Part shown: one piece after another, positions 6,152 through 8,139 of the stretch
How positions within the stretch are numbered: position 1 is the stretch's first letter
Layout: each line of letters begins with the position of its first letter
NCBI RefSeq assembly: GCF_039535235.1
Contig: NZ_BAAAWU010000001.1
Span: forward strand, 6,079,001-6,143,000
Length of the DNA stretch: 64,000 bases
Origin: Streptomyces roseoviridis
GTDB lineage: Bacteria; Actinomycetota; Actinomycetes; Streptomycetales; Streptomycetaceae
Reading direction: 5' to 3'
Notes under the pieces: generated by a model
What the model was told of the DNA's origin: nothing
Database searches by the model: none
What the model saw: only the letters and a program-made list of their open reading frames with translations
Program-made: the position numbers and the translations under genes

Positions 6152-6235
6152 GGTCAGGCGCCGGCAGCGGGTGCCGGCGAGCATCGGGTGCGGGGTCAGG
6201 CGCCGGCAGCGGGTGCCGGCGAGCATCGGGTGCGA
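6152..6235. repeat. Two tandem copies of a 42-bp G+C-rich repeat
   Basis: A 42-base unit starting GGTCAGGCGCCGGCAG occurs at 6152-6193 and again at 6194-6235, nearly identical. A degenerate third start (GGTCCGGCGCCGGC) follows. The unit lies across the broken end of the tetR relic, so the duplication may be connected with its decay. It has no spacer structure and is not a CRISPR. Confidence 0.75.
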
Positions 6236-6369
6236 GGTCCGGCGCCGGCCCGGCCGGCGGGGGCCACGACGTCCGGCGGCCGGGCGCCGTCGTCACCCCG
6301 GGCGGCGAAGGCGTCCCCGGCCGCGCGGATCGGCTTCTCCCGGATCCCGGGTCCCTGGGGCCTCGCCAT
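6196..6369 (-). pseudogene. Remnant of a TetR-family regulator (N-terminal part only)
   Basis: From the ATG at 6369 the frame reads MARPQGPGIREKPIRAAGDA, then [19 protein letters not shown], and stops after 57 codons. This matches the first helices of a TetR DNA-binding domain (usual form: MARP..PEIRE..I.AA..AFA.RGYDGA...DVV..AG). The frame ends before the rest of the HTH and the ligand domain. The key Tyr after RG is Asp, and the tandem repeat replaces the following codons. No continuation with TetR similarity was found in other frames down to the SDR gene. It is divergent from the FAD dehydrogenase, the usual position of its regulator. Confidence 0.6.
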
Positions 6370-6438
6370 GGCGGTCACCCTAATGTCCCGCCTGAGGAAA
6401 CGGAACGGGCACGAACGGCCCCGGGCAGGGCCCGGCCA

Positions 6439-6467
6439 TTGACTCGATACATCGGTGTATCCAAGAT
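6439..6467 (+). promoter_or_regulatory. Promoter of the FAD dehydrogenase, leaderless
   Basis: TTGACT (6439-6444) and CAAGAT (6462-6467) are spaced by exactly 17 bases. Transcription would begin about 6474-6475, which is the A of the ATG at 6475. There is no ribosome site before that ATG, consistent with a leaderless mRNA. Confidence 0.6.
6446..6461. promoter_or_regulatory. TetR-type operator between -35 and -10
   Basis: GATACATCGGTGTATC has 6-base arms GATACA and TGTATC around a 4-base centre. It fills the spacer of the promoter, so a bound repressor would exclude RNA polymerase. The adjacent divergent regulator gene is a truncated relic. Confidence 0.6.
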
Positions 6468-6474
6468 GCGGACC

Positions 6475-8139
6475 ATGTCTCATGATGCGTACGACGCCGA
6501 TGCCATCGTGATCGGGGCCGGCCTCGCCGGTCTCGTCGCCACCGCCGAACTGGTCGACGCGGGCCGCTCGGTGATCCTGCTCGACCAGGAACCCGAGCAG
6601 TCGATCGGCGGCCAGGCCCACTGGTCCTTCGGCGGCCTGTTCCTCGTCGACTCGCCCGAACAGCGCCGCATGCGCATCCGCGACAGCCACGCCCTCGCCC
6701 TCCAGGACTGGCTCGGCACCGCCGGCTTCGACCGGCCCGAGGACGCCTGGCCGAGGCGATGGGCCGAGGCGTACGTCGACTTCGCGGCCGGCGAGAAGCG
6801 CGCCTGGCTGCGCGGCATGGGCGTCCGCTTCTTCCCGGTCGTCGGCTGGGCCGAGCGCGGCGGCTACGACGCCAACGGGCACGGCAACTCCGTCCCCCGC
6901 TTCCACATCACCTGGGGCACCGGCCCCGGCCTCGTCGCGCCCTTCGAGCGGCGGGTGCGCGAGGGCGTCGCCCGCGGCCTGGTCCGCTTCCGCTTCCGCC
7001 ACCGGGTGACCGGCCTGGCCCGCACCGCGGGCGCGGTCGACACCGTCACCGGCGAGGTCCTGGCCCCCTCCGACGTCCCGCGCGGCACGGCCAGCGGCCG
7101 GGAGGTCACCGGCGACTTCTCCTACCGGGCACAGGCGGTGATCGTCACCTCCGGCGGCATCGGCGGCAACCACGACCTGGTGCGCGAGCAGTGGCCCGAA
7201 CGCCTCGGCACCCCGCCCGCCCGCATGCTCTCCGGCGTCCCCGCCCACGTCGACGGCCTGATGCTCGGCATCGCCGAGGACGCCGGCGCCCACCACATCA
7301 ACCGCGACCGGATGTGGCACTACACCGAGGGCATCGAGAACTGGAACCCGATCTGGGCCCGCCACGGCATCCGCATCCTGCCCGGCCCGTCCTCCCTCTG
7401 GCTCGACGCGACCGGCAGGCGGCTGCCCGTACCGCTCTTCCCCGGCTTCGACACCCTCGGCACCCTCGAACACATCATGCGGACCGGCCACGACCACACC
7501 TGGTTCGTGCTCGACCAGAAGATCATCGGCAAGGAGTTCGCGCTCTCCGGCTCCGAGCAGAACCCCGACCTCACGGGCAAGTCCGTCCGCGACGTCCTCG
7601 TCCGCGCCCGCGCCGACGTCCCCGGCCCGGTGAGGGCCTTCATGGACAAGGGCGCCGACTTCGTCGTCGAGCGGGACCTCGCCGCCCTGGTGCGCGGCAT
7701 GAACCGGCTCACCGGCGAGGACCTGATCGACGAGGCCGCGCTGCGCCGGGAGATCACCGCCCGCGACCGCGAGATCGCCAACCCCTTCACCAAGGACCTC
7801 CAGGTCATGGCGATCCGCGGCGCCCGCCGCTACCTGGGGGACAAGCTGATCCGCACGGCCGCCCCGCACCGCGTCCTCGACCCCAAGGCCGGCCCGCTGA
7901 TCGCCGTCCGCCTCCACATCCTCACCCGCAAGTCCCTCGGCGGCCTGGAGACCGACCTCTCCTCCCGGGTCCTCGACCCGTCCGGACAGCCGCTGCCGGG
8001 CCTGTACGCGGCGGGCGAGGCGGCCGGCTTCGGCGGCGGCGGCGTCCACGGCTACCGCTCCCTCGAAGGCACCTTCCTCGGCGGCTGCCTCTTCTCGGGG
8101 CGAGCGGCGGGACGGACGGCGGCTGAGGCGGTGGGCTGA
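6475..8139 (+). CDS. FAD-binding dehydrogenase (KstD/fumarate-reductase-like)
   Basis: This 554-residue flavoprotein starts with the FAD dinucleotide motif VIGAGLAGLVA about ten residues from the start. It ends with the flavin-binding GLYAAGEAAGFGGGG and GGCLFSGRAAG. This architecture is that of FAD-binding dehydrogenases related to 3-ketosteroid delta-1-dehydrogenase and fumarate reductase flavoprotein. The substrate is likely a steroid-like or other enone-forming ketone (inference). The start at 6475 is chosen over the upstream ATG codons because the promoter places the transcription start there. Its divergent TetR regulator is degraded, so expression may now be constitutive. Confidence 0.88.
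   Translation: MSHDAYDADAIVIGAGLAGLVATAELVDAGRSVILLDQEPEQSIGGQAHWSFGGLFLVDSPEQRRMRIRDSHALALQDWLGTAGFDRPEDAWPRRWAEAYVDFAAGEKRAWLRGMGVRFFPVVGWAERGGYDANGHGNSVPRFHITWGTGPGLVAPFERRVREGVARGLVRFRFRHRVTGLARTAGAVDTVTGEVLAPSDVPRGTASGREVTGDFSYRAQAVIVTSGGIGGNHDLVREQWPERLGTPPARMLSGVPAHVDGLMLGIAEDAGAHHINRDRMWHYTEGIENWNPIWARHGIRILPGPSSLWLDATGRRLPVPLFPGFDTLGTLEHIMRTGHDHTWFVLDQKIIGKEFALSGSEQNPDLTGKSVRDVLVRARADVPGPVRAFMDKGADFVVERDLAALVRGMNRLTGEDLIDEAALRREITARDREIANPFTKDLQVMAIRGARRYLGDKLIRTAAPHRVLDPKAGPLIAVRLHILTRKSLGGLETDLSSRVLDPSGQPLPGLYAAGEAAGFGGGGVHGYRSLEGTFLGGCLFSGRAAGRTAAEAVG

Follow-up and report, generated by a model that had tools for sequence, protein, structure and literature searches.

The window, a 64,000-nucleotide stretch of the Streptomyces roseoviridis genome, holds a gene for an FAD-binding dehydrogenase, the decayed remains of a tetR gene that is divergent from it (TetR1 in the following), and an intact gene for an SDR oxidoreductase (Table 1). 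A palindrome of the form GATACA-N4-TGTATC (the GATACA site) lies in the dehydrogenase promoter. The sequence-only reading had described the tetR gene as truncated to 57 codons and ending in a 42-bp tandem repeat, which agrees with the coordinates found for the ORF and the repeat. It had also placed the palindrome, GATACATCGGTGTATC, inside the 17-base spacer of the promoter, and this placement was confirmed, at positions 6446-6461 between TTGACT and CAAGAT. The promoter was not detected by a simple sigma-70 scan and was called because it is conserved in relatives. In each of the 17 distinct relatives having it, the palindrome stands between TTGAC(T/G) and (C/G)AAGAT, and the promoter block at 6439-6474 is identical to that of Streptomyces roseicoloratus (locus L006) at 33 of 36 positions. 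Candidate starts of the dehydrogenase are found at 6466 and 6475. The divergent starts are 106 bp apart in the window and 74 to 122 bp apart in those relatives that have a full match to the dehydrogenase. The SDR gene, with window positions 5972-6198 upstream of it, has lost the ancestral tetR1 promoter region, and its codon bias is normal. Outside this clade, the dehydrogenase promoters of four loci (L113, L016, L013, and L047) were seen by eye to carry other dyads, GTTAC...GTAAC-like, near the −35 and −10 boxes, which suggests yet other regulators of the dehydrogenase.

Table 1. Positions of genes, gene remnants, and predicted regulatory sites around the dehydrogenase promoter, numbered along the window
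Feature	Position	Strand	Basis or remark
SDR oxidoreductase, intact	5207..5971	−	Follows tetR directly, in the same orientation, in relatives
tetR (TetR1) relic, whole	6369-6025	−	Decayed; divergent from the FAD dehydrogenase
C-terminal piece of the TetR1 relic, in a different frame behind a deletion of ~240 bp	6025..6246	−	Alignment to S. roseicoloratus
42-bp tandem repeat, two copies, duplicating 14 tetR codons	6152-6193/6194-6235	−	Copies 98% identical
Short ORF in the TetR1 relic, 57 codons	ATG 6369 to stop 6196-6198	−	ORF reading
First 41 codons of the TetR1 relic, with the decayed helix-turn-helix part	6247..6369	−	75.9% DNA identity to S. roseicoloratus over 6474-6247
Putative operator of the lost TetR1, broken: TAATGTCCCGCCTGA, versus TAATGCNNNNCATTA in orthologs	6381..6395	.	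Window fails TAATRC-N2..4-CATTA
FAD dehydrogenase promoter, TTGACT-N17-CAAGAT (TTGACT 6439-6444, CAAGAT 6462-6467), predicted operator in spacer	6439..6467	+	Conserved in relatives
Predicted operator, intact, GATACATCGGTGTATC, probably for an RGA(F/Y)YSNF TetR encoded 1.02 Mb away	6446..6461	.	In the 17-nt spacer
FAD-binding dehydrogenase (NF009472/PRK12834, FAD_binding_2)	6475..8139	+	Family match

Alignment with related genomes, the check that the sequence-only reading had proposed, revealed both an intact tetR at this site in 15 of 17 distinct relatives with the GATACA palindrome and the lesion itself, a deletion of about 240 bp plus the 42-bp duplication. Read from the operator side, the window aligns only to positions 1-218 and 458/462-632 of the S. 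roseicoloratus stretch, so that the middle of tetR is missing, with a change of frame, and in this alignment the 3′ end of the gene is unrecognizable. Homology to tetR continues beyond the 57-codon ORF, in another frame, to about position 6025, which makes the relic longer than first described, and the final 16 codons of the ORF extend into the tandem repeat. On its own, the 57-aa ORF matched no Pfam family at E values up to 10; its identity as a tetR comes from the intact orthologs in relatives. The 42-bp repeat was considered as a mobile or regulatory repeat and was ruled out because it duplicates tetR codons.

The relic has also lost coding constraint. Over the first 41 codons, it differs from S. 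roseicoloratus at 3, 13, and 7 sites at codon positions 1, 2, and 3, respectively. Second-position differences numbered only 0 to 5 between S. roseicoloratus and 13 other intact orthologs, compared to the 13 of the relic (14 orthologs were compared, with L090 and L092 excluded). Furthermore, 22 of 55 A/T sites of S. roseicoloratus in the two aligned parts are now G/C in the window. By these sequence patterns, the TetR1 gene is dead and drifting toward high G+C. The relic thus combines disabling lesions with lost constraint (deletion, duplication, and second-position excess), and an intact ortholog stands at the matching place in the relatives, as in a pseudogene.

In Streptomyces relatives, the intact TetR1 gene lies between the FAD dehydrogenase and SDR genes and is divergent from the former. 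Among the 17 relatives that bear the GATACA site, counted as distinct genomes (loci L007 and L096 are one genome), the two exceptions are L090, which is frameshifted, and L111, which is without the gene. Where intact, TetR1 is 209 to 224 aa long (222 in L100 and 224 in L094), and it reaches 281 aa in S. roseicoloratus, its frame running on. L090 was considered as a further loss of tetR1 and set aside; a sequencing error is likely there, as this assembly shows broken frames for the SDR and the FAD dehydrogenase as well. In L111 (genome G025, around position 1507; G025:C1:5948465 region), a separate deletion took tetR1 together with most of the SDR gene, and the last SDR codons now adjoin an intact dehydrogenase promoter. 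This genome retained the GATACA site together with TetR2, a second regulator described below. TetRs of the host genome that resemble TetR1 were also considered, the best-scoring one being 34% identical.

TetR1 has a palindrome of its own. Of 31 distinct orthologs, 30 have the pattern TAATRC-N2..4-CATTA at 10 to 11 bp before the TetR1 start, and the 31st is one base off; in shuffled controls, there were 2 matches in 10,200 shuffles. The palindrome, whose form is TAATGC-N4-CATTA, is most simply read as TetR1's own operator. Fifteen of the 31 orthologs (69 to 85% identical to the query) are without the GATACA site. For these, the FAD dehydrogenase is a divergent neighbor 142 bp off in one case (L113), is 1.15 to 1.25 kb away in 5, and falls outside the fetched stretch in 9. 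Within about 100 bp, therefore, two palindromes have met different fates: the TAATGC palindrome decayed along with TetR1, whereas the GATACA palindrome did not.

The GATACA palindrome is rare in the host genome and widespread in the genus. In the 7.45-Mb host genome, there is one exact copy and none with one mismatch; with up to two mismatches, it is found at 13 places, compared to 7 for the reversed control. The exact sequence GATACANNNNTGTATC, a 12-base pattern, was found in 81 of the 295 genomes sampled from the genus, versus 2 of 295 for the reversed pattern. Its presence goes with that of another TetR, TetR2, which has the recognition helix RGA(F/Y)YSNF: a TetR2 homolog, defined by an E value of ≤1e-20 to one query, is encoded in 79 of the 81 genomes with the site compared to 76 of the 214 without it, although the P value of 2.7e-25 overstates this co-occurrence because the genomes are related rather than independent. 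Conversely, 76 of the 155 genomes having a TetR2 homolog have no exact site. A second set of 36 genome records, which is not fully separate from the 295 (G045/G324 and G002/G317 show identical coordinates), contained 6 with the site, each of which also encodes a TetR2 homolog; the site is 28 to 99 bp upstream of the TetR2 gene in 3 of the 6, and 5 further records have a homolog without an exact site (5 of 11).

The context of the sites points the same way. Among the 75 sites listed, out of more that were found, 55 (in 47 genomes) are 32 to 104 bp upstream of a TetR2-type gene, its helix being RGA(F/Y)YSNF in the loci whose helices were read, and 7 precede a gene for a class II aldolase that is convergent with TetR2. 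The remainder comprise 10 FAD dehydrogenase promoters and 3 unexplained sites. Outside the dehydrogenase promoters, 62 of the 65 listed sites lie beside a TetR2 homolog. Moreover, the 16 genomes with the site before this FAD dehydrogenase, drawn from 30 loci listed, are the same 16 that encode a TetR2 ortholog 80 to 100% identical to the query, the next best being 65%. When 30 loci were fetched by the site (L116 to L145), 26 held TetR2 together with an FAD dehydrogenase 59 to 64% identical to that of the window, with 64% identity in the one full pair. A second copy of the site, with up to two mismatches, is present 17 bp away in 27 of these 30 loci; the window promoter has a single GATACA palindrome without a second copy.

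Some side observations were made at these sites. Exact sites without a TetR2 homolog beside them are found at G021:C25:85395, G022:C112:49910, and G058:C1:447514; in G021 (L191), a TetR with the helix RGAFYGHF is about 400 bp from the site. In several of the loci fetched by the site, TetR2 and the FAD dehydrogenase are divergent from a gene for a 2OG-Fe(II) oxygenase (AlkB-like; Pfam match for L116 only), often followed by an apparent MBL-fold gene, and a shared function is possible. The TetR beside GAGACATTGATGTCTC, at position 6217159 of the host genome, was also considered; by eye, its helix is different.

The host genome has its own TetR2 (G000:C1:7102534-7103178), which is 1.02 Mb from the FAD dehydrogenase, is 82% identical to the query, and has the helix RGAYYSNF. 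It belongs to the TetR family, with a TetR_N score of 59 bits versus the Pfam cutoff of 24, and its frame is open until a stop about a dozen residues short of the aligned query's end. Compared to L195, it differs at 17, 9, and 51 sites at codon positions 1, 2, and 3 (L225 and L207 were excluded from the counts), as opposed to the 3, 13, and 7 of the TetR1 relic. Since the substitutions are mostly at third positions, this gene is under purifying selection.

The helix itself correlated with the site. Helices were read for loci L116 to L145 and L194 to L233, and the former were left out of the count because they had been fetched by the site. When TetR2 homologs of less than 80% identity were selected by protein, a site with 0 to 1 mismatch was present upstream in 10 of the 11 distinct homologs having the helix RGAFYSNF, compared to 1 of 9 with other helices (L233, RGAFYGNF), several of these controls coming from one subfamily. 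One control, L212 (RGAFYSNY), carries the site with two mismatches.

Within the window's clade, the TetR2 gene itself lacks a GATACA site (4 to 6 mismatches). Autoregulation, by which a cognate site is usually recognized, is thus missing in this clade. The dehydrogenase site is the sole exact GATACA site in three genomes, those of the window, S. roseicoloratus, and G025, and TetR2 is kept at 82 to 84% identity in all three. The aldolase gene that lies beside TetR2 in seven relatives was not found in 7.0 kb around the host TetR2 or in 3.6 kb around that of S. roseicoloratus, and only a 47-aa stub of it is present in G025 (stretches compared: L179:2939-4637, L207, and L225). A 52% identical aldolase elsewhere in the host genome is probably a paralog. 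That TetR2 was kept in three genomes whose only exact site is the dehydrogenase promoter, and that G025 kept this promoter and site after losing tetR1, is as expected if the dehydrogenase is a real target of TetR2.

What the sequences show directly, namely the relic, the two palindromes, an intact gene for TetR2, and the co-occurrence, is very probably explained by two repressor-operator pairs that share one intergenic region, with the FAD dehydrogenase most likely still inducible and repressed in trans by TetR2. TetR1 would have bound TAATGC-N4-CATTA at its own promoter, controlling itself and the SDR gene behind it; it probably repressed both, and it may have added a second layer of control on the dehydrogenase. 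TetR2, encoded far off, would bind GATACA-N4-TGTATC in the promoter spacer and repress the dehydrogenase by blocking RNA polymerase. A ligand would release it from the spacer, and a nearly leaderless transcript would then follow. We infer the spacer block and such a transcript start from where the palindrome sits in the promoter and from the candidate starts. In the window's lineage, TetR1 was lost through the frame-changing deletion, the 42-bp duplication, and GC-biased substitution, with decay of its putative operator, while TetR2 and its putative operator stayed intact. At the decay rates of the relic, the chance that all 12 operator bases survive is about 0.009. Several observations weigh against this explanation: the relatedness of the genomes, the missing GATACA site at the TetR2 gene of the window's clade, the single palindrome in the window promoter, the closeness of TetR1 to the dehydrogenase, the TetR2 homologs in genomes lacking an exact site, the three sites with no such homolog next to them, and, among the helix controls, the L212 site and the shared subfamily.

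The sequence-only reading had instead taken GATACATCGGTGTATC as the target of the relic. The dehydrogenase would then be constitutive and the site a fossil. The divergent tetR start less than 200 bp away would suit such an arrangement, as TetRs so placed usually repress their neighbor according to the excerpted text of PMC3511530, and the GATACA site is in the shared intergenic region at every one of the clade's 16 distinct TetR1 loci. However, TetR1 orthologs bear another palindrome and 15 of 31 do without the GATACA site, which in turn outlasts TetR1 in two lineages, including that of the window, where the TAATGC palindrome decayed; genus-wide, the GATACA site tracks the TetR2 clade. Ownership of this site by TetR1 is therefore improbable. 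The same evidence led us to reject constitutive expression through the death of the operator's owner, which does not follow in any case, since this genome has an intact gene for the probable regulator at another place. The same reading had also allowed that a second TetR now acts at the site. The second TetR is supported, as are the truncated tetR beside an intact operator-promoter and the intact gene in relatives, so that half of the interpretation holds, but "now" is doubtful: relatives carry the site next to an intact local tetR, and so TetR2 probably acted there before TetR1 was lost.

Control of the dehydrogenase by both regulators is more plausible, though still rather unlikely. TetR2 would act from the spacer and TetR1 from the TAATGC palindrome, which precedes the −35 box by about 45 bp. 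With TetR1 lost, one layer of control would be gone, and expression would have become higher or simpler. This would fit the short shared intergenic region and the divergence of TetR1 from the dehydrogenase throughout the clade, but the TAATGC site is also kept where the dehydrogenase is 1.15 to 1.25 kb away (5 loci) or outside the fetched stretch (9 loci), a pattern that fits autoregulation of TetR1. Least probable of all is that the palindrome was kept for a need of RNA polymerase in the spacer rather than for repressor binding. It does lie exactly between the −35 and −10 boxes, yet outside the clade, dehydrogenase promoters such as those of L016 and L113, compared by eye, combine similar boxes with spacers that are unrelated, and TetR2-type and aldolase genes have the palindrome upstream together with different boxes.

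Extending the preferred reading, that of TetR2 acting at the GATACA site, to the genus, it seems likely that a TetR clade with the helix RGA(F/Y)YSNF and the site GATACA-N4-TGTATC, usually present twice at a distance of 17 bp, is the regulator of PRK12834-type FAD dehydrogenases. The regulator would adjoin the enzyme elsewhere and act remotely on a 64%-identical relative in the window's clade, and in three species it would have lost its aldolase target and been kept for a single remote promoter. The operator spellings were not found in the literature searched, which is no proof of their absence from print, and the matches listed for Streptomyces TetRs with a class II aldolase or an FAD-binding dehydrogenase held nothing on TetR2. 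The analysis thus supplies an exact predicted operator, a helix-site match, and a testable regulon for a TetR clade that had no match in that literature. The case is ordinary in kind, but it is a clean natural test of assigning a palindrome to a repressor, in which a relic and its operator decayed separately from a second, untouched operator, all within about 100 bp.

Several known systems can be compared. TetR2 matches TetR_N and TetR_C_6 and so resembles the TetR regulators with a TetR_N and a BetI-like C-terminal domain (PF00440 and PF13977). It also matches solved TetR structures by sequence, the nearest being UidR (6ayi/6ayh; best E value, 1.2e-14), which is too distant to supply a ligand or an operator. 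Like other regulator pseudogenes, the TetR1 relic shows a deletion, a frame change, and a relaxed codon pattern; unlike them, it has beside it an intact operator that most likely was not that of the dead regulator. A further comparison is with Streptomyces TetRs under the 200-bp rule from reporter work, by which, in the excerpted text of PMC3511530, a local TetR is expected to control a close divergent neighbor. As in the pairs described there, the tetR of the window is divergent from an enzyme gene across a short intergenic region, well within 200 bp, that holds palindromes. The rule would assign the dehydrogenase to TetR1, but the sequence evidence points elsewhere: the local TetR has its own TAATGC site, and the promoter palindrome, which tracks TetR2, most likely belongs to that distant regulator. 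This locus is a likely counterexample to inferring the target of a repressor from its neighbor gene.
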